Shown here one piece after another: positions 23,971 to 40,169 of a stretch of DNA of 64,000 nt. Position numbers and translations under genes: made by a program. This DNA is from Synechococcus sp. MIT S9220. Its GTDB lineage: Bacteria > Cyanobacteriota > Cyanobacteriia > PCC-6307 > Cyanobiaceae. The notes beneath the pieces were generated by a model. That model had not been told where the DNA came from. It did no database searches and worked only from the letters and a program-made list of their open reading frames with translations. The stretch is taken from NCBI RefSeq assembly GCF_014304815.1, contig NZ_CP047958.1, positions 1,984,001-2,048,000 on the forward strand, written 5' to 3'. Each line of letters opens with the position of its first letter. Position 1 is the stretch's first letter.

Positions 23971-24477
23971 ATGGCTTTCACGATTTTCTTTGCAACATCA
24001 ACGGGCAAAACGGAAGATATTGCCGATCGCCTGAAGGAACTTCTGGGGACTGATGCCAAAGATGTAGACAGCATCAGCGGTGTCGACGAATTGGCTTCTG
24101 CAGAAGCTCTCGTCTGCTGCATTCCAACTTGGAACACAGGTGCCGATGAAGCACGTTCAGGTACAGCCTGGGACGACCTGATTACTGAAATTCCTGGTCA
24201 AGATTTCGCTGGTAAGCCCGTTGCGATTCTTGGATTGGGCGACTCCTCAGGTTACGGCGACTATTTCTGTGACGCCATGGAAGAGCTGTATAGCGCATTC
24301 CAAAAATCTGGCGCAAAACTGATCGGTCAAGTATCTCCTGAAGGTTATACCTTTGATGAGTCAAAGAGTGTGATCGACGGTAAGTTCTGTGGACTGCCTA
24401 TTGACGAAGACAACGAGTCTGAACTCACCGACCAACGCCTGTCTTCTTGGGTTGCGCAAATCAATTCAGAAGCCTGA
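23971..24477 (+). CDS. isiB: flavodoxin
   Basis: 168 residues, a long-chain flavodoxin. The FMN phosphate loop is FFATSTGKTEDIA; the ring-stacking loops are PTWNTGADE and GLGDSSGYGDYFCDA. It replaces ferredoxin as electron carrier from photosystem I under iron limitation. It is followed by an intrinsic terminator and faces a thioredoxin-reductase-like flavoprotein on the other strand, with isiA 2.4 kb away. I see no unambiguous Fur box upstream. Confidence 0.95.
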   Translation: MAFTIFFATSTGKTEDIADRLKELLGTDAKDVDSISGVDELASAEALVCCIPTWNTGADEARSGTAWDDLITEIPGQDFAGKPVAILGLGDSSGYGDYFCDAMEELYSAFQKSGAKLIGQVSPEGYTFDESKSVIDGKFCGLPIDEDNESELTDQRLSSWVAQINSEA

Positions 24478-26922: not shown

Positions 26923-27975
26923 TCAGTTGATTTTTGCCTTATCCATGGATTCAAAAGCATTCACAACGCTCTTGAAGTTGAAACCCATGCCCCTGAGAGC
27001 ATGCCAGAGATGTCCCTGAAGGAAGAAGAAGGCAAGATAGAAGTGAGTGTTCGCCAACCACGCACGAGCCGTGTGTGCATCTCCCGAAAGAGTGGACGTG
27101 TCGGTGAAGTAAGGGGAGAAAGCGAAATTCAGTTTCAAAGGAGCGCCATACAATTCGACGGGATAAATCGTCGTATTTTGAGCGCACCAGATCGCTGTCA
27201 CAAAACCCATCAGTGCGATGCCCGCGAGTGAGTAAGAAAGGATCGACTCACCGTTGTAAATCAGGACTTTTTTGAAAGGACCGAAGGGGGAACTGATGAT
27301 ATGCCAAACGCCACCGATCGTGAGAATGAACGCAAGAACAGCATGACCACCCATCACATCTTCCAAACTACTGATCGTCAGGAAGTTGGTCTGATAGCCC
27401 CAGACCATGCCGAGATCAATATTGGGCTCAACAGTACGAACTGCTCCAAGTGAGGCATCGTAAATGCCGTGGACTCGAGCCCATTCAACGAAGGCGATGA
27501 CACCCAAACCAAGGAAAATCAGGTGATGACCAAGGATAAAAGTGAGCTTCTTGGGATCATCCCAGCTGAAATCGAACTTTTTGGCGCGTCCAGTTGCTTC
27601 GGAAAGATCCTTAGGAGCACGAAGAGTATGCCAAATACCAGCAGCACCCAGAACTGCGGAGGAAACAAGGTGCGTAGCAGCCACCACAATCAGGGGCTGT
27701 GAGTCGACGATGACTCCACCATCCCCAACACCGAGCCCCAAACCAGCCAGGTGAGGAATCAAAATCAAACCCTGCTCACCCATCGGCAGGGAGCCGTCGT
27801 ATCGAGCGAGTTCAAAAAGCGTGAATGCTCCGGCCCAGAACATGATGAGACCGGCATGTGCAGCATGCGCAGCGATGAAAGAGCCGGAGCGCTTCGCTAC
27901 TCCAGAATTTCCCGCCCACCAGTCATAAGAGACTGATGAATTTCCATACGATTGCATTGGGAAAATGAAAGGCAT
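26923..27975 (-). CDS. isiA: iron-stress chlorophyll-binding protein IsiA (CP43')
   Basis: 350 residues, the size of IsiA and lacking the large lumenal loop E of CP43. Six membrane helices carry chlorophyll-ligand histidines, e.g. SFIAAHAAHAGLIMFWAGA, VVAATHLVSSAVLGAAGIWH, ILGHHLIFLGLG, GGHAVLAFILTIGGVWH and NTHFYLAFFFLQGHLWHALR. It forms antenna rings around photosystem I under iron shortage. The related Pcb antenna of Prochlorococcus is the alternative name; proximity to flavodoxin favours IsiA. A dedicated terminator follows. Confidence 0.92.
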   Translation of the reverse strand: MPFIFPMQSYGNSSVSYDWWAGNSGVAKRSGSFIAAHAAHAGLIMFWAGAFTLFELARYDGSLPMGEQGLILIPHLAGLGLGVGDGGVIVDSQPLIVVAATHLVSSAVLGAAGIWHTLRAPKDLSEATGRAKKFDFSWDDPKKLTFILGHHLIFLGLGVIAFVEWARVHGIYDASLGAVRTVEPNIDLGMVWGYQTNFLTISSLEDVMGGHAVLAFILTIGGVWHIISSPFGPFKKVLIYNGESILSYSLAGIALMGFVTAIWCAQNTTIYPVELYGAPLKLNFAFSPYFTDTSTLSGDAHTARAWLANTHFYLAFFFLQGHLWHALRGMGFNFKSVVNAFESMDKAKIN

Positions 27976-29676: not shown

Positions 29677-30129
29677 AAGAAAAAAAATTGACATGAACAG
29701 GATCGCACAAAATCAGCAAAAAAGATAGTTGTGAACGGATCTGAATTGTCACTATCAATACAACCCACGCAAGTCACAAGGGCATACAAGCCAATGAATC
29801 AATCGAGGTCACTCAAACAATGACAACACAAACAAGCCAACCCCAAAAGCAAGGAATAGTCCAAGCGCAACAAACACGTTATTGATGCAACCCGATCACT
29901 CTAAGTAGAAACACTTATCTAGCGCGAGGCACTAAGCCAAGGTTTGATACCTGCAAGTTCACCATATGCAAACATTTGCAATCAAGAAACAGCAGAGGAG
30001 CTGTGCTGTAGGCACACAAAAAATCAGAAACCCAAGAATTTAAGGTTCAACGCTGGAAAACCATCCAGCGGTCTGACCTAATTTAAACAAACAGAGATAG
30101 GATTGATTGACAAAGATCAATCTTCGGGA

Positions 30130-30597
30130 TTAGCCTTCGATACTACGTTCAAGAGGTAGAATATCCTCATCAGAAGAATCCTTGGATATTGTTGGAACTG
30201 GTATTGCGACTTTAGCCTTTGCTTTTTTAATCGTAAATGGAGGAACTGCAAATGATGGAATTGGCACACGCACAGAGAATTGGCTAGTTCCTACAGGCAC
30301 ATTATTAATAGAACCTATTCTAGGACGATTAGGCAGCACTTCTTCGCCAGAAGCATCATAGATAAACGCAAAAACATCAACATCCTTGATCAAACTTTTA
30401 GCAGTACTTTTAATCTCACCATCCAATATATAGCACCCTGAACGATAGCCTTTTGGCTGTTTAGAGGCAGGATCAGCAGTATCACATTTCACGAGGTCAA
30501 GCTGGCTTAATTCAAGATCGAGCGATTCGGCAGAAGGAACAACAGCAAAAAAAGACAAGCAAAAGATAAAAATAATTGACAGAATAGTGTTTTTCAT
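30130..30597 (-). CDS. secreted hypothetical protein, about 155 aa
   Basis: Start ATG at 30597 (30606 also possible). A classic signal peptide, MKNTILSIIFIFCLSFFAVV, is cleaved near PSAES. The mature protein has a Cys pair (VKCDT and SGCYIL), beta-rich segments and a motif with VPVGTSQFSVRVPIPSFAVP. The tail is acidic. It probably lies in the periplasm or on the cell surface. No family recognised. Strong AT bias matches the surrounding island. Confidence 0.65.
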   Translation of the reverse strand: MKNTILSIIFIFCLSFFAVVPSAESLDLELSQLDLVKCDTADPASKQPKGYRSGCYILDGEIKSTAKSLIKDVDVFAFIYDASGEEVLPNRPRIGSINNVPVGTSQFSVRVPIPSFAVPPFTIKKAKAKVAIPVPTISKDSSDEDILPLERSIEG

Positions 30598-30916
30598 AAA
30601 CATCATGATAAATACAATCTCTTGTGCACAATGCTGCATATCAAGGAAAATAGCAAACGCAAATTAGCAAAGACATGTATCGATTGTATCACTGAGATCG
30701 CAATACGACAAGAAGAGCAGCACGTAAAATCTAATCACTTGATTAAAATCAATCCAGTAAGATCATTACGTTTGCATGCATAGATCTAGAATGATCAGAA
30801 TGTTCAGAACAAGCTGTCAAACTCTGATTGAATCATTGAACAAAAATAACGTAGGCAATCTCACAAGAAGGAAAATTCTAGATGTCAACAAAACAAGTAT
30901 TCAAAGAGAGATTCGA

Positions 30917-31210
30917 TTATTGTTTTGAATAGAAGCCACGCCGCTCAACACATCTCTTGAATCGCTTGGATTCATATAACCAAAACTTTTCTTTATCGAG
31001 AACAAAGCCCTCGGCCAAGGCAATCGCAACGACATGATCTTCATTATTCGCCTGAGCGATTTTTTGCTGAAGAGTCGCATCATCCTTGAGCCTAGAAAGG
31101 AAAGCACAAAGATCTTGTTCTGACTGCTGACACTGCTGAAATCTCCCCATATAAAAGGGCATTGTCTCGCGAGAGTTCATAAACAGATCGAAAGGAATCT
31201 CAAGATACAA
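30917..31210 (-). CDS. Nif11-like small protein
   Basis: Up to 97 residues; internal ATGs at residues 17 and 21 are alternative starts. The middle, AFLSRLKDDATLQQKIAQ followed by AIALAEGFVLD, has the Nif11 pattern. Nif11 domains serve as nitrogen-fixation-associated proteins or as RiPP leader peptides. Here the C-terminus is basic with one Cys (KRFKRCVERRGF), there is no GG cleavage site, and no modification enzyme is nearby, so a peptide natural product is not indicated. Confidence 0.6.
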   Translation of the reverse strand: MYLEIPFDLFMNSRETMPFYMGRFQQCQQSEQDLCAFLSRLKDDATLQQKIAQANNEDHVVAIALAEGFVLDKEKFWLYESKRFKRCVERRGFYSKQ

Positions 31211-31424
31211 GCAATTGACAAGCCAATTACAAACAAATAACTATCTTAAATTAAGATAGTTACATCAACTGTTTAGCTTTATTGAATAAGTTAAATTTAA
31301 AACTCAGCGACAGCGGTGGGAACAGACGCAACCAAGAGCAAGCTATTTTTAAGCTTTAAGCAAAAACAAGACAGACTGACTTAGGTCTTACAAACGAAAC
31401 AATCAGAAATTTCAGCGTATATCT

Positions 31425-31658
31425 TCATTTGACAAGATTAATAGTCCATCGACGACCACCCATTCGATCGTCTTCAGAATAACAATTAGCCAGTAAAACT
31501 CCACTAGCACTACGCACTATACATTCAAGACCATCTTTAGTTGTAACAAAGCTAGAAGCATTGGGGCAGACAAGATGCTTCGAACCACTACTCATAGCTT
31601 TAACAATATGCGTCCAAATAAGATCAATATTTTCGTCAGTAGGGGTAGCAAAATGCAT
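31425..31658 (-). CDS. hypothetical protein, 77 aa
   Basis: ATG at 31658. The sequence includes TPTDENIDLIWTHIVKAMSS, two Cys (HLVCPN, LECIVR) and the ending GGRRWTINLVK. The composition is protein-like, but no family is recognised. Isolated among AT-rich spacers. Confidence 0.5.
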   Translation of the reverse strand: MHFATPTDENIDLIWTHIVKAMSSGSKHLVCPNASSFVTTKDGLECIVRSASGVLLANCYSEDDRMGGRRWTINLVK

Positions 31659-31836
31659 CAAGACATTTATAAACTAAGTTTATACTAGACAAACTAACGA
31701 CTCACGCAATGTACTGATGGTCACAACAGGTGGGGCTTATGAACGAACCTGCACTAAAAACATCGTTCAAGCCTTAGTTAATACAAACAAGTCAATTAAA
31801 TTCTGCGAAATGACTGCTTTAAAGTCATGACACTAT

Positions 31837-32031
31837 TTATTTTTTAATCCGCGAGGCAATATCCATATAATCAAAACCGTCTAAATCATCAATGTCCTGT
31901 GGTGCAAAGCCCTGTGGTTGAACAGTTTTGGCCATACTCAAGAACTCACTGATGTAACCGCGTCGGAGGGTACGCGCAGGAATGCGCTTAGGAGAAAGGT
32001 CGCTAATGGTTGAAAGCTCAAGTGCAGTCAT
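31837..32031 (-). CDS. hypothetical protein, 64 aa
   Basis: ATG at 32031. A basic first half (SPKRIPARTLRRGYISEFL) and an acidic second half (QDIDDLDGFDYMDIASRIKK) suggest a small adaptor-like protein. No family recognised. Confidence 0.5.
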   Translation of the reverse strand: MTALELSTISDLSPKRIPARTLRRGYISEFLSMAKTVQPQGFAPQDIDDLDGFDYMDIASRIKK

Positions 32032-32263
32032 TATAGAACTTCATGAATTCATACGAAGAAGGCTTTTCCGCGCATCGGACTTAGAGCGGAAACTGGAGCA
32101 CAACAAAGTCCACGACGACAGCGGGCTCAAGAGCTGAGGGCAAAATCAAGGCGCTCTAAACAGCTGATCGTCGCGCCAATAAAATCTCAAATTACCGCAA
32201 GAGTGAGGTCAACTCGTAATCATTTTAGACGCGGAGACTTACAATAAAATCAGGATTAGCTGA

Positions 32264-32566
32264 TTAGACAACATCACTAAGGGCATATCGCAAAAACTTG
32301 AAGACAGAAATCGGACTCAACGTCATCCAAATTTCATACAACGTCAGGCGATCTGATGACACAAAGCACTGGGATTCATAGATCCGATTAAATCTATCGT
32401 GACGAATCGATTGATCTCGTCGCTGCTCAAGTTGCCTTTGCTGATGCGCAAAGTCTTCCTGAGCAGCAACGGCCTCATCAATGACCAGGAACCAGCTTTC
32501 ACCACCTTTCAGAGCTTTAGAGAGCCACTGAAACAAACTACTGATCAGAGAAAGTAATTTTTGCAT
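32264..32566 (-). CDS. hypothetical protein, 100 aa
   Basis: ATG at 32566. An amphipathic N-terminal helix (MQKLLSLISSLFQWLSKALK), a Glu/Gln-rich helical middle (HQQRQLEQRRDQ) and a hydrophobic C-terminus. The N-terminal helix could bind membranes. Not recognised. Confidence 0.5.
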   Translation of the reverse strand: MQKLLSLISSLFQWLSKALKGGESWFLVIDEAVAAQEDFAHQQRQLEQRRDQSIRHDRFNRIYESQCFVSSDRLTLYEIWMTLSPISVFKFLRYALSDVV

Positions 32567-32681
32567 CTAACCAAAAAGACATCTGATCATAAGACCCGTT
32601 CTTCGCTCTCCTTAGTGCTCAGCAACACATGGGTGGAGAATTGACCGTTGCTATTGATGACTTCGGTTCGAGAATCGTCGG

Positions 32682-32771
32682 GTGAACACGCGAATCATGC
32701 TGATCTACGCTGGCATTTTTATTGCAGGCTTTCTATTCGTCTCAACAGGACTGGCTTACGACACATTCTGA
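32682..32771 (+). CDS. candidate 29-aa single-helix membrane peptide
   Basis: GTG at 32682, or ATG at 32697 giving 24 residues. The sequence MLIYAGIFIAGFLFVSTGLA forms one complete membrane helix, ending YDTF. No ribosome-binding site or terminator is obvious. It resembles small thylakoid subunits only in general design. Confidence 0.35.
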   Translation: MNTRIMLIYAGIFIAGFLFVSTGLAYDTF

Positions 32772-32954
32772 GCAATGGTCAAAAACCGAATTTAGTGCTG
32801 ATAGCAATCCATGCAATGTGTCGTCAAACAGTGAAGACTATTCTATATAATCTGTGAATTTTGAGATGACGACACATCCAATAGCAACGCTACTAATAAC
32901 AAGTGACTACTATTTAGAAAGAAAGTGCTACCCGCAACGAATAGGAATCAACAC

Positions 32955-33122
32955 ATGGATCGTTCAAAGCAACATAACTATCCAAGAACTGTCTATGACA
33001 ATGCCTGGGAAGATCTAAGTGTGATGTACGAAAGCTGGAAAACAGTCCACGGAATCGATCGACAGTTCTGCATCGATATGCTCCACAAATTTGCCAACTA
33101 TCTTGAACATGAAAAACACTAG
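32955..33122 (+). CDS. hypothetical protein, 55 aa
   Basis: ATG at 32955. Helical with many aromatic residues: TVYDNAWEDLSVMYESWKTV, then GIDRQFCIDMLHKFANYLE. The pattern suggests a compact helical domain. Unknown family; reads like a real protein in an otherwise poor region. Confidence 0.5.
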   Translation: MDRSKQHNYPRTVYDNAWEDLSVMYESWKTVHGIDRQFCIDMLHKFANYLEHEKH

Positions 33123-33241
33123 AATTAACGCAAATACAAAATTTTAATTATCAATAAAACGAAGGTTTTGTCATCAATTTGATAACATTTAAGTGCAAGA
33201 TTGATTACAAGATCAGAGAACTCAAATAATCAAAAAGTTCC

Positions 33242-33694
33242 TCAAGTTGAAATTAAGGCTGACAAACAGACACCGTAAAGAAAGCCACTGCAAAGCAGAC
33301 CAAAAGCCCAGCATACGGACCTGAGGAGTGAGATATTTACAAGATAAGAAACAAGATAAATAGCTCGAAGGATTGGATGCGCAAATGCAACAACAACCGC
33401 AAAAGCTGGAAGCAGAAGACCATTCAAGACGACAAGAATAGCCAGGATAGTTGCCGGAGCATGCAGAGAGAATGATTCAAAACTATTTTGCTGAGCCCAG
33501 CTGGCTCTTTTCCCCCAGGCGGGATAACGATCAAACATTGCGCGTAGAGACGAAAGATCACTCATCTCAAACTGAGCTTTAAAGCGAGCCACATAAAGCG
33601 GCGCAATACTCAAAATCACCATTCCAAATGACAGAACAAGCGACCACACGTAAGGCGCCACTTCAGCGTGAGGGGAAAACTGTGCCAAGAACAT
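33242..33694 (-). CDS. MAPEG family membrane protein
   Basis: 150 residues with four hydrophobic helices. The middle RYPAWGKRASWAQQNSFESF is the typical first-loop motif of MAPEG (membrane-associated glutathione/eicosanoid) proteins. Possible glutathione-dependent detoxification in the membrane. The 300 bp downstream to 33996 contain no recognisable gene. Confidence 0.75.
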   Translation of the reverse strand: MFLAQFSPHAEVAPYVWSLVLSFGMVILSIAPLYVARFKAQFEMSDLSSLRAMFDRYPAWGKRASWAQQNSFESFSLHAPATILAILVVLNGLLLPAFAVVVAFAHPILRAIYLVSYLVNISLLRSVCWAFGLLCSGFLYGVCLSALIST

Positions 33695-33996
33695 TGATTA
33701 AAAATTTAAATTGATGTATTCCAATCCATCATCCTAATGAGCATCGTTCGTTAAAACAAGTTGTTGTATTAGCGCCTATGCAGTAATACTGAAGCTGATG
33801 CTGGTCAACGCGAGAACCTCTATTGCCTCTTGACGCATCATTGATTCTCGGTTGTTCAACACAAGTCACCAAAATCGGGAATGCTCCCGTATTGAGCCTT
33901 AGAGATCATCACATGAGATGTTCAGGCTGTGTGAGGCCACAATGAATTGCATTCAAGCCACGAACTCACTAGCCTGATCAAAAAGATGTCCAGCGC

Positions 33997-34701
33997 GTGC
34001 TCATCAACCCGAACGAACTTCCGCTTAAGCAAGCAGCTGACCGATGCCAAGCGCTGTTAAGCAGCAAAAAAGTTTTGGTTTGTAGTAAGAACAGATTAAC
34101 ACTGACTGCTTTATGTCTTTGCACGCCTATTCTACAATCACTGATTGGTGGGGCAACCACTGAAGAGGAAGGACTAGACTTACAGCTAAAATTCAACCCT
34201 GATCTTTTGATTACAAGTGAAGACCTTGAGAAGGGATATGGTATTCGTCTTGTAGAAAGAGTCAAAACCCACAGTCCCAAAATTACTGCCCTGATTTTTC
34301 TAGGGCGAGAAACAACTGATGTTGTCCATGAAGCGATGGATGCTGGAGCAGATGGAGTTATGTTCATGTCATCGGTGGGATCAGGGCATGGAGACTTCAT
34401 TAATGCACTGACCACGACAAACAATGGTGGTGTCTATTATCCGAAATCAGTTCGTACAGCCGCTACAGCAACGATCAAACAACCTCCTGAGCTCATCGAT
34501 CCATTGTCTGAGCGCGAGCGTGAGGTTCTGCGCTGCATTATCCAAGGGATGAAAAATTCTGAAATCGCAGAATCGTTATTCTTGTCTTCAGAAACAATCA
34601 AAAGTCATGTCAGTACTACAATCCAGAAGCTAGGAGTTAGAGATCGAACTCAAGCTGCTGTTTTTGCTCTCACTCATGGTTTGGTCGAAGTCGATATTTA
34701 A
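33997..34701 (+). CDS. LuxR/NarL-type response regulator with degenerate receiver
   Basis: 234 residues from GTG. The receiver-like domain (about 20-150) ends in a linker, and the C-terminal HTH is typical (LSEREREVLRCIIQGMKNSE, then SETIKSHVSTTIQKLGVRDR). In the receiver, the phospho-acceptor region reads PDLLITSEDLEKGYG, so Ser stands where Asp is expected. The conserved Thr/Lys positions are also altered (LIFLGRE, GVMFMSS). DNA binding should be intact, but activation by phosphotransfer is doubtful. The target is unknown; no histidine kinase is nearby. Confidence 0.85.
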   Translation: MLINPNELPLKQAADRCQALLSSKKVLVCSKNRLTLTALCLCTPILQSLIGGATTEEEGLDLQLKFNPDLLITSEDLEKGYGIRLVERVKTHSPKITALIFLGRETTDVVHEAMDAGADGVMFMSSVGSGHGDFINALTTTNNGGVYYPKSVRTAATATIKQPPELIDPLSEREREVLRCIIQGMKNSEIAESLFLSSETIKSHVSTTIQKLGVRDRTQAAVFALTHGLVEVDI

Positions 34702-34859
34702 GTTCTGACCAACCTGATATCACTCAGTAAGGGCAACGACTCTCTTGAGGGCATGAATCAATCTTGAACAGTCTTGCGATGACGTCTGCCATTCGAGCAA
34801 CCAAGCCACTCGCAACAGACGCATTGAACTCTTAGAGTATTTGTACTTAGTTCAACTCT

Positions 34860-34952
34860 ATGACGAGCTCAAATCTGCTTGTTCTATTCGTCAGCTTTTC
34901 GACAGCCTGCCTCGTTCTGAGCATTTACAAAATCAACCAGACAGCTCAGTGA
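34860..34952 (+). CDS. 30-aa membrane peptide, copy 1
   Basis: ATG at 34860. One hydrophobic helix from LLVLFVSF to LVLSIY with a short polar tail, and one Cys in the helix. It shares LLVL-x-VSF-x-x-AC-x-x-LS-x-YK with the peptide at 35144, which strongly argues that both are translated. No known photosystem subunit fits. The ribosome-binding site is weak. Confidence 0.55.
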   Translation: MTSSNLLVLFVSFSTACLVLSIYKINQTAQ

Positions 34953-35143
34953 GTTGTCGCAAATGATTCTCCGGACAAAGTTCTGGCTGTGAAAGCCAGG
35001 CTTGTCTCAAAGCCAGCCCTCATCGGTCACTCCAAAAGATCAAGCGAAGTCGCCCAGCGCGATCACCAGATTGACGGTCGCGCCCCAGAGGTCTTTACAT
35101 TTCGCAATAGCTTGCGTAAACTTCTGTAAATGACTCGACCACC

Positions 35144-35239
35144 ATGTTTGGAACAACTGATCTCCTGGTTCTTGTAGTGAGTTTTGGGGCAGCCTGCTTC
35201 ACGCTCAGTCTCTACAAAAGCGCTAAAGCAACGTCCTGA
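35144..35239 (+). CDS. 31-aa membrane peptide, copy 2
   Basis: ATG at 35144. DLLVLVVSFGAACFTLSLYK is followed by SAKATS. It is a paralogue of the peptide at 34860, with the same helix, Cys and YK positions. It lies in a 0.3-kb spacer otherwise without genes. Single-pass membrane location is inferred. Confidence 0.55.
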   Translation: MFGTTDLLVLVVSFGAACFTLSLYKSAKATS

Positions 35240-35311
35240 GAATTCAAAGCAATCTGCGTAGCAGTGAACCACTGTTGCAGCTCTTCACCCTGGCTAACGA
35301 TGGCTATATTA

Positions 35312-35333
35312 AAGATAATTACAGAATTATCTT
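35312..35333. repeat. AT-rich 9-bp inverted repeat
   Basis: AAGATAATT-ACAG-AATTATCTT. The GATAAT/ATTATC arms recall Fur-type operators, but the site lies downstream of flanking genes, so a transcript-end hairpin is equally possible. Nothing else is seen in 35240-35569. Confidence 0.5.
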
Positions 35334-35569
35334 AAAAACCTGCTAAATAATTACTTACGGTTTGCGACCGAGAATTAATCAACCTCATCGTCAATATCGC
35401 AAATTAAGGGATTATAGTTTTACAATTCCGTAAACATATGATCTGGGTGATTACAGTGGTTACTTGAAATCAGTCAATACCAAACTAAAGATTCAAAAAT
35501 TGCATCATCAATCAGCTAGGCAGGTGTGATTCTGCCTAAACGAGCAAAAACCACCGTTTCGCCAGAGAT

Positions 35570-35851
35570 CTAATCAGCAAGCCAACGCGTGATCAGCGTC
35601 CCTTCATAAATATGGCCAGAAGCCTCAACAATTGGCTTGGTCTGCGGATTCATGAAAATGTCATACAGAACATTTTCCGGCCCTTGAAATATGACGGTTG
35701 CCCTTTTTGGGTTTTCCTGAGAAACACCGAGATAGAAAATCTTGACACCCATTTCTGAGAACATGACCTGCTGCTCAGGCGCTTCCATATAGGCTTTGTA
35801 TTCTTGGAAGGTATTGCTGAGCTCGAAATCGAGAACAGTGGTTTCGATCAT
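35570..35851 (-). CDS. DUF3764-like protein
   Basis: 93 residues from ATG at 35851. It begins MIETTVLDFELSNTFQEYKA and continues with GVKIFYLGVSQENPKRATV, a pattern I associate with the small DUF3764 proteins of marine cyanobacteria. A dimeric alpha+beta barrel is likely. Function unknown. Confidence 0.55.
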   Translation of the reverse strand: MIETTVLDFELSNTFQEYKAYMEAPEQQVMFSEMGVKIFYLGVSQENPKRATVIFQGPENVLYDIFMNPQTKPIVEASGHIYEGTLITRWLAD

Positions 35852-35903
35852 TGCTAATTAGACCAAAAGTTGATTCAGCCAAGGATATGCAGTGAGAGCT
35901 GTG

Positions 35904-36086
35904 ATGGCATCGAACCAGTCAGATCAGCAGTCATCGCGTCGTCCAAGAAGGCTGCACTCGCCAACGCTATCAAGTGGAAGCAGCTCTGGAACCAATCCCA
36001 GCAAGCATCTGCGTGTGAAGCAGAGGCTGACCAAAGCTGAATGCCCTGTGCTTGAACTATTGAGCAACCAGGTTGCTGCGGCATGA
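35904..36086 (+). CDS. hypothetical Ser-rich basic protein, 60 aa
   Basis: ATG at 35904 with AGAG upstream. Ser/Arg-rich N-terminal half (SDQQSSRRPRRLHSPTLSSG) and a helical C-terminal end with TKAECPVLELLSNQVAA. Probably disordered. The opposite strand is also open, so the call is uncertain. Confidence 0.35.
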   Translation: MASNQSDQQSSRRPRRLHSPTLSSGSSSGTNPSKHLRVKQRLTKAECPVLELLSNQVAAA

Positions 36087-36155
36087 GGAGAAATTGTTAT
36101 CCCACCTTGACTGTTCCCGAGGCAACTCTAGAACTCTGGAAGAGGCACGATTCGA

Positions 36156-36296
36156 ATGGAAATCCACACTGCCCATGCCGAACCAATTGGTGAATTTATC
36201 CATGAGGGAGATCACAAGCCATTTCGCGCTTTAGCATGTCCAATTGGCCCCAGCTGCAGACTTACAAGTCAAACAGCACCAATCCAAAAAGAGTAA
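36156..36296 (+). CDS. candidate small protein, 46 aa
   Basis: ATG at 36156 with AAGAGG ten bases upstream. MEIHTAHAEPIGEFIHEG, then two Cys (LACPIGPSCRL). No family recognised. Downstream, 36297-36839 contains no other gene that I can support. Confidence 0.3.
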   Translation: MEIHTAHAEPIGEFIHEGDHKPFRALACPIGPSCRLTSQTAPIQKE

Positions 36297-36839
36297 AGCC
36301 GAGCGACACAAAACGCTGGCATGTCATTGTCGAGTCATCAGTCAAATCTGAGATTTCGCAGTGGCGAAAGAAAGAGTCTCCAGTCAAAAAGAAGTGTCAA
36401 CAGGTGTGGTGATCTCAATTCAGATGCATCCATAAGCTCTGTAGCAAATTTCAAGTGAGGTCACAAAAACTGAGAGCATTTCAGCCTTGATTTTGCTTTT
36501 GATACATCGGAATGCATTCATTTTTATTGAACAACCCAAACTAATTTTCAAGCTAAAGAGACAGGATTGGGAACAATGAAGTCAGCAATACCTTGATCAT
36601 TAAATTTTGGCAAAAATCACCGAGGTCTTCCTCTTAAGCGCTGCACCAGGCAATTCCCCTCATCGAGCAAGCTGGCGTTGGTTGGTCGAGAAACCAAGAA
36701 AAGGACACCTCTCGATCCTTTTGGATTCGTTGCAAACTGCCACCTCAACCGTTCGAAGATCAAAACCGTATTGAGAAGCTTCAGATACGAGGGCAACAGC
36801 AGGGAAAGGCGATGATCGAACGGCACTCGGCATCGATTG

Positions 36840-37181
36840 ATGGCATCTAAGTTCTTCCATGTTCACCATGAGTTTCGGGCCGGGAAAGCCCAGCAATGGT
36901 GGGAGACAGCTCAGAAAGCCATGGCTCCAGGAGGAGGCTGGGATGAGGCAGTCGCGAATAATTTGAAGGATGGTTTCTATAACCATTGCTTCTGCCCGGT
37001 TGGTCCAGAAGGACCTGCGTTCTGCATCTGGGAAGTGCGTGAGGACATCACTGCGCAGCAGTTCCAGGATTTCATCGACGGTCCAAACGGTGTGAACTTT
37101 GGACTTGGAGCATGGATGAATATCTGCAAAGAGATCAACGTCGAACTGGCTGGGAATCCCCCTTATCCGCGCAAGTTCTGA
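36840..37181 (+). CDS. hypothetical protein, 113 aa
   Basis: ATG at 36840. MASKFFHVHHEFRAGKAQQW, then NHCFCPVGPEGPAFCIWEVR and a C-terminus with NPPYPRKF. The single alpha+beta domain with a leading beta-strand HHEF resembles the dimeric alpha/beta-barrel group, like the nearby DUF3303 and DUF3764-like proteins. Three Cys in one strand pair (CFC...C) are notable. Function unknown. Confidence 0.65.
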   Translation: MASKFFHVHHEFRAGKAQQWWETAQKAMAPGGGWDEAVANNLKDGFYNHCFCPVGPEGPAFCIWEVREDITAQQFQDFIDGPNGVNFGLGAWMNICKEINVELAGNPPYPRKF

Positions 37182-37303
37182 GCAACATCAGGACTATGGC
37201 CTGGATCTGTTCCATCTAGGCCTTCACAAGGCTTCTTGGTCGATCAGACATCCGATCTCTTCTGCTCGCTCTGAGCTGCGAAGACGAAACGTGAGCTCAG
37301 GCT

Positions 37304-37432
37304 CTAGCGAACCGAATCAAAGGTGATTCCCATCACTCTGGTCAGCACGAGATAGCCGCCCCAAGCGATCACGTTCAGACCGATCGCCCAGAACCAGACC
37401 GTTTTGGTTGTTTGGCTGGTGTCCTCATCCAT
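37304..37432 (-). CDS. small membrane protein, 42 aa
   Basis: ATG at 37432. MDEDTSQTTK is followed by a single helix, VWFWAIGLNVIAWGGYLVL, and a short tail. Acidic N-terminus and one helix; composition and clean boundaries suggest a real gene. The 0.1-kb space to the next gene on its right fits its own promoter. Family unknown. Confidence 0.5.
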   Translation of the reverse strand: MDEDTSQTTKTVWFWAIGLNVIAWGGYLVLTRVMGITFDSVR

Positions 37433-37484
37433 GAGTCATTAGCTCGTCATCCCATGAGCACAACACCATGCTCAACATCACGGC

Positions 37485-37709
37485 TCAGGCTGCAGCCTGC
37501 TCTGTTGTGTTGCGAAGAACTTTCTCTTGTAGTTGCTGAACAGCGCAAAGGGCCTCGTGGGCAGGCCACCCATGCTTGTTCATCAGCTCCTCCACCAGAT
37601 AGTCGGGAGAGTTGGAGATTCGAGCGTTGAGATCAGCCACAGCCCTGTCGTCACGGGCTAGTGCATCGAGTCGGAGTGATCGAAGTTTTTGAAGACTTGG
37701 CTGATTCAT
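37485..37709 (-). CDS. hypothetical helical protein, 74 aa
   Basis: ATG at 37709 (37715 possible). Helical with RSLRLDALARDDRAVADLN, NSPDYLVEELMNKHGWPAHE and AVQQLQEKVL. No cysteine-based or membrane features beyond one Cys. Resembles small cyanobacterial proteins of unknown role. Confidence 0.6.
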   Translation of the reverse strand: MNQPSLQKLRSLRLDALARDDRAVADLNARISNSPDYLVEELMNKHGWPAHEALCAVQQLQEKVLRNTTEQAAA

Positions 37710-37815
37710 CCCCACACTTTGCCTGTTGGTGGTTCCTGACCACCATCAAATGACTGTGGAACACAGCTCAAGTGGCCGCTCCATAGTGTGATGATCTCTG
37801 CCCAGACACTCTGAT

Positions 37816-38100
37816 GGGGGCCTTCCAGCCCCCGCGAGTCAATTGGGTGATAAGGCTGACTTCACCCCATCTCCCTTAAGGGTCAGGCAGCAACAGGGGC
37901 TGCTTGACGGGAGAAACGAACGATGTTGTTCGCAGTTACGGGTTTGCTCTTACCGAGCAGGCTTCAGTCACCCTCCTTATGCCCCGTCGAAACCATTGCA
38001 GCCCCGAGAAGGGGGAATGGAGCTGAGCGGAATCGAACCGCTGTCCGAAACACTGGTGTGGATCACCTAGTCCGGTCGAGACCGGACGTTGTCATTCTGA
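37816..38100 (-). ncRNA. ssrA: tmRNA, permuted two-piece form
   Basis: On the minus strand the acceptor piece comes first (about 38100 to 38018). It contains the T arm GCGGTTCGATTCCGC and ends CAGCTCCA. After a 12-nt spacer the coding piece starts at 38005 with GGGGCTGCAATGGTTTCGAC. GGGGCTG pairs with CAGCTCC to form the tRNA-like acceptor stem. This order is the circularly permuted arrangement known in some cyanobacteria, processed into two RNAs. The hairpin GGGGGC-TGGAAG-GCCCCC at 37816-37833 marks the far end. It rescues stalled ribosomes with SmpB. Confidence 0.93.
37883..37933 (-). other. ssrA: tmRNA proteolysis-tag reading frame
   Basis: Resume codon GCG at 37933. The frame encodes ANNIVRFSRQAAPVAA and stops with TGA at 37883-37885. 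The C-terminal APVAA is the Clp-type degradation signal expected for cyanobacteria. Confidence 0.93.
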
Positions 38101-38128
38101 CAGCAGTGGTGAAGCGGAGCAGGAAGTC

Positions 38129-39322
38129 TTGGGGAGTGGGTACCGACATGCGCCGCAGTTGATTCATGGCGTCGCCGTGTTGCCCCAAGGTCTCGAGGAG
38201 ATCGGCAGCCAGGAATTGCAGACACTCGGCGCCAAAGAGGTCACACCATTACGTCGTGCCGCAGCATTTCAAGCCGACATGGCCTGCTTCTACAGGCTTC
38301 ACCTGCAATGCCGGCTGCCCTTCAGGTTGTTGCGGGAGATGGCACGCTTCCGCTGCGACGGTCGCGATTCGCTTTACGACGGAGTTCAGCAGGCCCTCGA
38401 CTGGGAACGCTGGCTGCATCCGTCGATGAGCTTTCGGGTGGATGTGACCGGAACTGCTCCCGGGCTGAACCACAGCCACTTCACGGCGCTCCAAGTGAAA
38501 AATGCCTTGATTGATCGCCAGCGTGATCTATGGGGGGAGCGGTCGTCGATCGATCTGGACGAACCCGATCTCTGCCTGCATGTTCACCTGCATCGTGGTG
38601 ATGCGAGCCTGAGCCTGGATGGCAGCGGCGGCAGCCTGCACCGCAGGGGATACCGAGCCGCCGTGGGGGTGGCTCCACTGAAAGAGAACCTTGCCGCAGG
38701 GCTGATCAGACTGACTGGCTGGGACGGAAGCACCCCACTCATCGATCCCTGCTGCGGTTCAGGAACGCTGCTGATTGAAGCTGCCGCGACGGCACTGCAG
38801 CGATTCCCTGCTCTGCATCGCAACTTCCTCCTGGAGTCATGGGCGGATTTCGATCCAGATCTGTGGCAGGCAGAACAACACAGAGCCCAGAAACGGCAGC
38901 AGCCCGTCAACAATCCACCACGAATCCTGGGCTATGAGCAGGACTCAAAGATTGCCCAACAGGCACGCGACAACATCAGCGCAGCGGGTCTGGAGGACGT
39001 GATCGAAATCGTTGAAGCCGATTTCAGGGATGCACCGGCTCCGGAGGCAGACCACGGCGTGGTGGTCTGCAATCCGCCCTATGGGGTGCGACTGGGCCAC
39101 ACCACTGAGCTCCAAGAGCTCTACAGAGAGCTCGGAGCAGTGTTGAAAAAAGATTACGGCGGCTGGGATCTGTGGCTGCTCAGCGGCAATCGAGAATTAA
39201 CCGGAGCTCTGCGCCTCAAAGCAAAGCGCAGAATCCCCGTGAACAACGGTGGATTGGATTGCCGCTGGCTGCACTACGAGCTGAACAGGCGCTCATCGGA
39301 TCCAGTCCTTCAGGGGAACTGA
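38129..39322 (+). CDS. class I SAM-dependent RNA methyltransferase with THUMP domain (RlmL-like)
   Basis: Up to 397 residues; TTG at 38129 or 38159 or GTG at 38177 may be the start, since conservation begins at VAVLPQGLEE. N-terminal THUMP-like region, then SAM motif DPCCGSGTLLIEAAA and catalytic NPPYGVRLG, as in N2-guanine methyltransferases of 23S rRNA. It acts on RNA in the cytosol. Divergent from ssrA, sharing its promoter region. Confidence 0.85.
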   Translation: MGSGYRHAPQLIHGVAVLPQGLEEIGSQELQTLGAKEVTPLRRAAAFQADMACFYRLHLQCRLPFRLLREMARFRCDGRDSLYDGVQQALDWERWLHPSMSFRVDVTGTAPGLNHSHFTALQVKNALIDRQRDLWGERSSIDLDEPDLCLHVHLHRGDASLSLDGSGGSLHRRGYRAAVGVAPLKENLAAGLIRLTGWDGSTPLIDPCCGSGTLLIEAAATALQRFPALHRNFLLESWADFDPDLWQAEQHRAQKRQQPVNNPPRILGYEQDSKIAQQARDNISAAGLEDVIEIVEADFRDAPAPEADHGVVVCNPPYGVRLGHTTELQELYRELGAVLKKDYGGWDLWLLSGNRELTGALRLKAKRRIPVNNGGLDCRWLHYELNRRSSDPVLQGN

Positions 39323-39333
39323 ACACAGACGAT

Positions 39334-39732
39334 TCATTTACCGAGAACAGCCCTCGTGGTTCGCATCAGACCTTCCAGTGTCTGAGGCAGATACGGCCCT
39401 TTGGCGAGCTGACCGCCAATCCGCAGGCTGAATCCGGCTACCACCACATTGAGGATCGCCATCGCCAGCAGCGCTTGGATCAACGACCAACCCCAGGATT
39501 CCAGCATCCACACCAGTAGGGCGGCTTCAACAGCCACAAGGGCGAGCAGCATCAGCGTGCCCCCCATGGCAAGAAACACACCGCCACTGATCAGGCGCCG
39601 TTTCTCGCGATCCACCTCCTGCAAAGCAATACGGACATGCAGATCCATGACTGAGCCTGCGAGTGCTGTGACCCGGGCGGCAGCGCCAAGTCCTCTGGAG
39701 CGCGATTGCTCCGAACGGGGCAGTTCACTCAT
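39334..39732 (-). CDS. phage-holin-superfamily (YqjE-like) membrane protein
   Basis: 132 residues. Hydrophilic N-terminus, two helices (GGVFLAMGGTLMLLALVAVE and the following LIQALLAMAILNVVVAG) and a basic tail. The form is that of the holin 3_6 / YqjE proteins, which are membrane-stress factors rather than phage genes. Overlaps the upstream DUF883-like gene by 4 bp. Confidence 0.7.
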   Translation of the reverse strand: MSELPRSEQSRSRGLGAAARVTALAGSVMDLHVRIALQEVDREKRRLISGGVFLAMGGTLMLLALVAVEAALLVWMLESWGWSLIQALLAMAILNVVVAGFSLRIGGQLAKGPYLPQTLEGLMRTTRAVLGK

Positions 39733-40169
39733 GAGGATCTCCGTCCACCGGTCAGTAGGGCACCCACCAGAATCCCTACACCAGCAGCAACCGCCAGTGA
39801 CATCAGGGGTCTGTCGCGCACCGGTTTCTCAAGCTTCGGCCTAAGAGTGCGGTTGAGCTCATCGAGCAGATGCTCAAGCTGCTCCTCCAGCGGATCAAGG
39901 TTGTCAGCGAAGTTGCGGGTGCGATCTCCGGCCTGATGGAGCAACTCCTCAAGCTGAACAGTGACAAGGCTCGCTGCCCGGTCGCTCTGGGCAGAAATCA
40001 GATGAACCACCTCATCGAAACTGCCGCGGGTGGCTTCAAGTGCTTGATGGGTGACTTCAGGCCAGCGCTTTTGGATCTCTGGCAAGAGACTCTCAAAGCG
40101 ATCCCGAAAGCGGTAGGCCAGATCCTGGGTGTCCGCAGGCGCATCGGCTGATGAGGGTGCTGAATCCAT
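39729..40169 (-). CDS. DUF883-like (YqjD/ElaB type) membrane-anchored helical protein
   Basis: 146 residues. Long amphipathic helices (RFRDRFESLLPEIQKRWPE, EEQLEHLLDELNRTL), then one C-terminal helix with RDRPLMSLAVAAGVGILVGA, the form of ribosome-associated YqjD/ElaB proteins. Coupled by ATGA to the YqjE-like gene, reproducing the YqjD-YqjE pairing. Confidence 0.7.
   Translation of the reverse strand: MDSAPSSADAPADTQDLAYRFRDRFESLLPEIQKRWPEVTHQALEATRGSFDEVVHLISAQSDRAASLVTVQLEELLHQAGDRTRNFADNLDPLEEQLEHLLDELNRTLRPKLEKPVRDRPLMSLAVAAGVGILVGALLTGGRRSS

Follow-up and report, generated by a model that had tools for sequence, protein, structure and literature searches.

Introduction

The Hlips (SCPs; Pfam Chloroa_b-bind), small one-helix membrane proteins, bind chlorophyll through an ExxNxR-type motif. 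A second precedent for very small proteins of this kind is SliP4 (HliR1) of Synechocystis 6803, which the accessible parts of two reports describe as a 37-residue, one-helix, RpaB-controlled protein that is strongly induced by high light (PMC12850537, PMC5126843) and that helps NDH-1 to associate with the photosystems (PMC12850537); the available portion of one of these texts reports that homologues are absent outside Synechocystis (PMC5126843). Where HLR1 lies in the core promoter, RpaB represses high-light-induced genes in low light, with examples at -42 and -50 from the start codon in the part of the source that is accessible (PMC6331805).

Marine Synechococcus are major primary producers whose light-stress machinery has been read mostly from annotated genes. 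We describe here a large unannotated family of micropeptides from Synechococcus and related genera, of which two accessory members stand side by side in the window, that is, in the whole stretch of 64,000 nucleotides that was analysed. On comparative grounds both ORFs are genuine protein-coding genes of marine Synechococcus, each specifying a membrane peptide of about 30 residues with a single predicted helix. Our main reading, to which we give a probability of roughly 0.6, is that the family, accessory and core members together, consists of stress-controlled single-helix thylakoid peptides that work with Hlips.

SliP4, likewise a single-helix small protein, is the closest working model; going by its available descriptions rather than by sequence, it is set apart by its position upstream of sodB, the micropeptides being multi-copy and linked to hli genes and to a second micropeptide gene, pepX. 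The Hlips share with the family a small size, a single membrane helix, putative HLR1-type control and gene linkage, but the micropeptides lack the chlorophyll-binding motif and, with no Pfam family at E values up to 10 for either window copy, do not fall within Chloroa_b-bind. PepX resembles the family in its single helix, HLR1-type upstream sites, hli linkage and common operons, but the sequences are unrelated (43 aa for pepX; hhalign probability 3%). We regard the micropeptides as a new family that may work like the SliP4/Hlip kind of high-light peptides, and claim membership in neither.

The two ORFs and their products

The preliminary description had reported two ATG-started ORFs of 30 and 31 codons separated by 191 bp, sharing a helix with a conserved Cys and a terminal YK, and both points hold. 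The features of the locus are as follows; genomes and loci are cited below by our own handles (G and L numbers).

33997 to 34701, + strand: gene for a regulator of the LuxR/NarL type whose receiver domain is degenerate, 158 bp ahead of copy 1 (start codon uncertain)
34836 to 34849, + strand: private element AGTATTTGTACTTA, a palindrome AGTA-N4-TACT, beginning 24 nt before the ATG of copy 1
34860 to 34952, + strand: copy 1, a group A micropeptide of 30 aa, MTSSNLLVLFVSFSTACLVLSIYKINQTAQ, starting with ATG, one predicted helix (residues 2-29)
35018 to 35096, - strand: remnant of the 3' end of a gene for a 330-aa membrane protein, placed by alignment with L004 and L005 (its right edge marks the deletion junction, and its left edge is accurate to within a few bases)
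35094 to 35111, + strand: HLR1-like site, positioned at -50 relative to copy 2, with a perfect first repeat TTTACATT (8/8) and a weak second one, full score 11/16
35144 to 35239, + strand: copy 2, a group B micropeptide of 31 aa, MFGTTDLLVLVVSFGAACFTLSLYKSAKATS, starting with ATG, one hydrophobic stretch

The two products align with 47% identity and 14 invariant columns, which include LLVL-x-VSF-x-x-AC-x-x-LS-x-YK. Each has one helix-length hydrophobic stretch, with a 19-residue mean hydropathy of 2.03 for copy 1 and 1.92 for copy 2. The helix of copy 1 is predicted by AlphaFold2 with a mean pLDDT of 88.3, in a model that consists of this helix only and is silent on partners. The source genome, 2.42 Mb in a single contig, holds a third copy away from the pair and a fourth, core member of the family at G000:C1:1537457. 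The likeness of the two copies exceeds chance, since the chromosome contains that third copy, relatives occur in 19 of the 31 genomes of the genus, and the differences are concentrated at third codon positions.

Searches of Pfam and NCBIfam at E values up to 10 gave no match for either window copy, and the Pfam matches of core members all fell below threshold, Hol_Tox at E 0.15 (12.4 bits, cut-off 23.3) being one of them. Among solved structures there was no credible relative, the one match (E 1.4) being meaningless. The peptides had been said to match no known small subunit of a photosystem, cytochrome b6f or NDH, and this was borne out: no solved subunit of photosystems, b6f or NDH-1 and no Pfam or NCBIfam model of such a subunit was matched. 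Open PMC papers, searched by topic and by peptide string, yielded no description of the family.

Distribution and ancestry of the family

The count of 19 of 31 genus genomes comes from a single-sequence search (E up to 0.1), with up to seven matches per genome. Profile A2 (E up to 0.01) matched 56 of the 400 genomes of the taxonomic family, of which 19 belong to the window's genus and 25 to genus g5 (one of these weak), the other 12 being weak matches elsewhere. Among the weak places inspected, g35, g48 and G172 proved to hold genuine small ORFs of the family type, and G213 did not. In a sample of the phylum the same profile at E up to 0.001 matched 15 of 386 genomes, confined to the window's genus and g5. 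When distant members were added (profile A4, E up to 0.001), 169 of the 400 family genomes were matched, in 18 of 59 genera; this is an upper figure that includes false matches, for example L177 and L178, which lie inside frames of about 340 aa. The two window copies score E 9e-17 and 1.7e-14 against A4, both having been rows of its alignment. Both match A2 as well, and both have the family's frame of about 30-35 codons with M-x-T-x-x-L-L...SF-x-x-A-C...L-x-x-Y/W-K. The profile search proposed in the preliminary description has found the family in the genus and beyond, in counts that are not independent across strains, the strains being related.

A core subfamily, detected with profile A5, is present in 26 of the 31 genus genomes with one match in each. 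Comparisons by hhalign among the accessory, intermediate and core groups scored 47.3 and 35.4; the best of 100 column shuffles per comparison reached 17.1 and 16.6, and the unrelated pepX profile scored 12.9. This profile comparison supports homology of the core and accessory groups.

Seven of eight named relatives are Synechococcus single-cell contigs, from which a marine Synechococcus is the likely source of the window. A contig labelled as a Crocinitomicaceae MAG (L011) encodes a group-C member together with pepX, and is probably a mis-binned Synechococcus contig.

Coding evidence and selection

Pooled dN/dS values (NG86, codons 2-27) range from 0.04 to 0.23 across seven sets: 0.06 for six copy-1 orthologs and again for nine group-B genes, 0.04 for thirteen group-C genes, and 0.10 and 0.12 for the two members of coupled pairs; two g5-type sets give 0.14 and 0.23. 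The altered L004 copy is left out of the group-B set, L078 and L071 (which belongs to the same gene sequence family as L070) out of the group-C set, and L099, L101, L102 and L107 out of the g5 sets. In shifted frames the same sets give pN/pS values of 0.97 to 6.13, and in the copy-1 orthologs and group-B genes the changes cluster at third codon positions. At five loci seen base by base (L009, L010, L084, L090 and L091) two members are joined by an ATGA overlap, the start of one on the stop of the other; match coordinates suggest a sixth overlap of this type in G013.

That the ORFs are not translated, the element acting as an RNA or the frames being open by chance, is extremely unlikely. The peptides are known here from sequence alone, which leaves some room for such a reading, but it has to contend with frame-specific constraint in all seven sets, with the ATGA-overlapping frames and with the outcome of the Rfam scan. 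Over positions 30000-40000 this returned only the tmRNA and two sub-threshold, chance-like microRNA matches, and a structural RNA was rejected as a candidate. As far as such comparisons can tell, both ORFs are under purifying selection; the translation and selection proposed in the preliminary description have comparative support, which includes the comparison of synonymous and nonsynonymous rates suggested there.

Broken frames in related strains had been named there as the observation that would count against the proposal. They occur in part for copy 2, the counterpart of which contains TAA in G008 and TAG plus TAA in G028, and looks degenerate in G013, with K in the helix and Y changed to C. 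Copy 1 is open in all six orthologs compared, and outside these six the G028 copy is open too, with an Arg within the helix. Copies are gained and lost among strains, some of them with damaged frames, a pattern that suits accessory roles better than essential ones.

HLR1-type sites and copy 2

A full HLR1 consists of two repeats with 16 informative bases, and the score of 11 before copy 2 is reached by 14% of random windows. The TTTACA of this site can also be read as a -35 box, with TAAACT at 35117-35122. The group-B and g5 relatives outscore copy 2. A perfect repeat is present in all 10 distinct group-B upstream regions, against 0.54% of random 70-nt windows; in nine it lies exactly at -50, and in L089 a 7/8 repeat lies at -50 and a perfect one at -40. 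Over the family, 16 of 59 distinct upstream regions have a full score of at least 13, compared with 0.57% of random windows, the 59 including L101 and L102, whose starts are mis-set and whose low scores are therefore uninformative. The high scorers are mostly g5-type members, with the site at about -35, together with L080, L081, L082, L089 and L092. Hlip genes, taken as positive controls, reach 13 in four of nine cases. These comparisons, made over related strains whose counts are not independent, establish an enrichment of HLR1-type sequences upstream of the relatives of the window copies.

The promoters bear on the possibility that the peptides have no stress role and serve constitutively as small subunits of NDH-1, cytochrome b6f or a photosystem. 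Their size, single helix and acidic-to-basic ends would suit such subunits, as would the occurrence of the core member in most genus genomes. Against this reading stand the HLR1-type promoters, the multi-copy and patchy occurrence and the lack of similarity to any solved chain, and we consider it unlikely, though worth keeping in mind.

Copy 1, its palindrome and the neighbouring regulator gene

Copy 1 has no HLR1 site that we could find. None of the group A or group D upstream regions reaches a score of 12, and copy 1 therefore carries no sign of RpaB control. It has instead the private element, which is present at the same spacing before nine of ten group-A copies; the tenth (L006) has one mismatch with the spacing unchanged. 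The 14-mer AGTATTTRTACTYA occurs six times in three whole genomes, five times directly before family members, whereas the reversed 14-mer, as a control, occurs in none of them. In the 31 genomes, AGTAWWWRTACTYA followed by ATGA within 30 nt is found at 11 sites. Nine of these belong to group-A copies, and in every one the element begins 24 nt ahead of the ATG; the other two have different spacings and are at no known member. In G013 both arms of the element are kept and the centre differs, as would fit a palindromic protein site. AGTA-N4-TACT was also compared with the LexA and NtcA consensus sequences as possible readings. The sole non-family occurrence of AGTATTTRTACTYA in the three genomes (L136, G008:C1:800921, - strand) precedes a small hydrophobic ORF starting MTPQRSSCNEPLQ.

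The gene before copy 1 had been called an atypical LuxR regulator, rightly so: its product scores 74 bits for the GerE HTH and 26.3 bits, below the cut-off of 30.2, for the receiver domain. It is a candidate regulator of group A, and the private element would then belong to a compact regulator-and-target pair to be identified.

Could copy 1 be mainly a partner or target of this adjacent protein, in a local module unrelated to light stress? The LuxR-type gene adjoins copy 1 in L004, L005, L086, L089 and the window, and homologues of at least 82% identity are found in exactly the seven genus genomes that have group A. Those seven are related strains, however, and five other genus genomes have LuxR homologues of 69-74% identity and no group A. 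In G017, moreover, the LuxR-type gene carries a TGA while copy 1 is intact, and the element also precedes group-A copies that are not beside a LuxR-type gene. A purely local module is in our judgement distinctly unlikely.

Linkage to Hlip genes and pepX

At the core member loci a same-strand Hlip gene lies downstream in all 23 that were parsed, out of 26 (three were left unparsed), although they all descend from a single ancestral locus, so that the linkage amounts to roughly one independent event. The distance from the stop of the core member to the first in-frame ATG of the Hlip gene is 29 nt in G003 and G018 and 481-530 nt elsewhere; in the window's genome an opposite-strand ORF lies between the two. 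The Hlips tested match Pfam Chloroa_b-bind. There are not many direct hli-member operons: in L008 (also G322) the order is hli, pepX, member, with an HLR1 score of 14 before hli, and in L099 (G279) the Hlip gene ends 3 nt before the member.

Fifteen distinct places have pepX directly before a family member. Where the distance was measured in group-C loci, the member begins 31-36 nt past the pepX stop, and in L008 the two overlap by 4 nt. The gene pepX is found in 28 of the 31 genus genomes and 82 of the 400 family genomes, with two copies in the genome of the window. Among 30 distinct regions upstream of pepX, 24 have an HLR1 score of at least 13, a level that 1.0% of random 130-nt windows reach, and of the remaining six, four are directly behind hli genes; in L126, L128 and L129 the start codon of pepX overlaps the Hlip stop codon. 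These gene orders establish that the family is linked to Hlip genes and to pepX.

PepX is itself a second unannotated micropeptide, of about 39-43 aa (L120, L121, L126, L128, L129, L008), with no Pfam or NCBIfam match at cut-offs. Upstream of group-B copies in L009 (897-1892), and also in L010 and L092, is a same-strand ORF of 331 aa in which histidine boxes resembling those of a fatty acid desaturase can be seen by eye.

The operons argue against a family of type I toxins of the Ldr/Ibs/TisB kind, short hydrophobic peptides that act by depolarising the membrane and whose expression antisense RNAs keep in check. Such toxins would match the family in size, in having one helix, in dispersed and tandem copies and in patchy presence; one core member has the sub-threshold Hol_Tox match, and antisense to copy 1, at 34993-34966, is a 9/12 promoter-like match. 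Promoter-like matches number 2, however, against 1.4 +/- 1.3 in shuffles, which is no excess; the Rfam scan places no RNA at these loci; 26 of 31 genomes have just one copy of the core member; and members lie in hli/pepX operons and behind HLR1 sites. We regard a toxin function as very unlikely.

Proposed function

The micropeptides probably act as small stress peptides in the photosynthetic membrane, because many relatives are beside Hlip genes or behind control sites of the light-stress type. The preliminary description had proposed new thylakoid subunits or stress peptides; the stress part gains indirect support from the HLR1-type sites and from the Hlip linkage of relatives, and what it said of thylakoid location and a subunit role keeps the standing of an informed conjecture.

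We infer the following scheme for regulation by RpaB, thylakoid location, topology and partnership with Hlips, photosystems or NDH-1. In low light, RpaB would hold down the HLR1 promoters, and high light or redox stress would release them, the route that copy 2 may take. Copy 1, having no HLR1 site, would be run by another factor binding AGTA-N4-TACT, possibly the adjacent LuxR-type protein. The peptides would insert in the thylakoid membrane with the YK end cytoplasmic, and there bind Hlip, photosystem or NDH-1 assemblies, stabilising or rearranging them during stress.

A more far-reaching version can be offered only tentatively. An old Hlip-linked micropeptide, an unrecognised partner of Hlips, may have been duplicated and dispersed in marine Synechococcus, the copy groups becoming wired to different stress inputs (HLR1/RpaB for some, a private palindrome and its dedicated regulator for others), which would let strains tune their photoprotection complexes with interchangeable 30-residue helices. 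With an Hlip-linked family that has no significant Pfam, NCBIfam or PHROGs match, photoprotection would gain components that have yet to be studied, and the partnership can be put to a direct test through the operons shared with Hlips and pepX.

How the pair came together

Why do members of two different subfamilies, groups A and B, adjoin in this genome? In the close strains L004 and L005 the order is LuxR-type gene, copy 1, opposite-strand genes, then copy 2 at about 1.45 kb from copy 1; the intervening genes encode the 330-aa protein, which has no Pfam match, and a small ORF. When the window is aligned with these strains, similarity on the left extends to 35096 and that on the right sets in at 35093, and about 1.26 kb is missing from the window. 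The junction lies where the HLR1-like site of copy 2 begins. We conclude that the copies adjoin because of this deletion. A local tandem duplication is ruled out by the genes that separate the copies in close strains and by the deletion in the window. The earlier term "paralogous pair" accordingly stands for the sequences and fails for a local duplication.

For phage origin, which was also considered and rejected, there were 14 pattern matches in viral contigs, none of them confirmed; one group-C member and pepX gave no phage match, and a PHROGs scan of three family members reached a best E of only 0.31.

The accessory segment carrying the pair is bordered by a permuted cyanobacterial tmRNA gene (37817-38103, - strand); tmRNA genes are common insertion sites. 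Adjoining it, at 37304-37432 on the - strand, is a hydrophobic ORF of 42 aa with no Pfam match. Elsewhere in the window, at 26923-27975 on the - strand, is a gene for a CP43-like chlorophyll protein (Pfam PSII, 187 bits), presumably of the IsiA/Pcb type, and at 23971-24477 on the + strand an ORF that we take to be flavodoxin-like; the two suggest an iron-stress neighbourhood.
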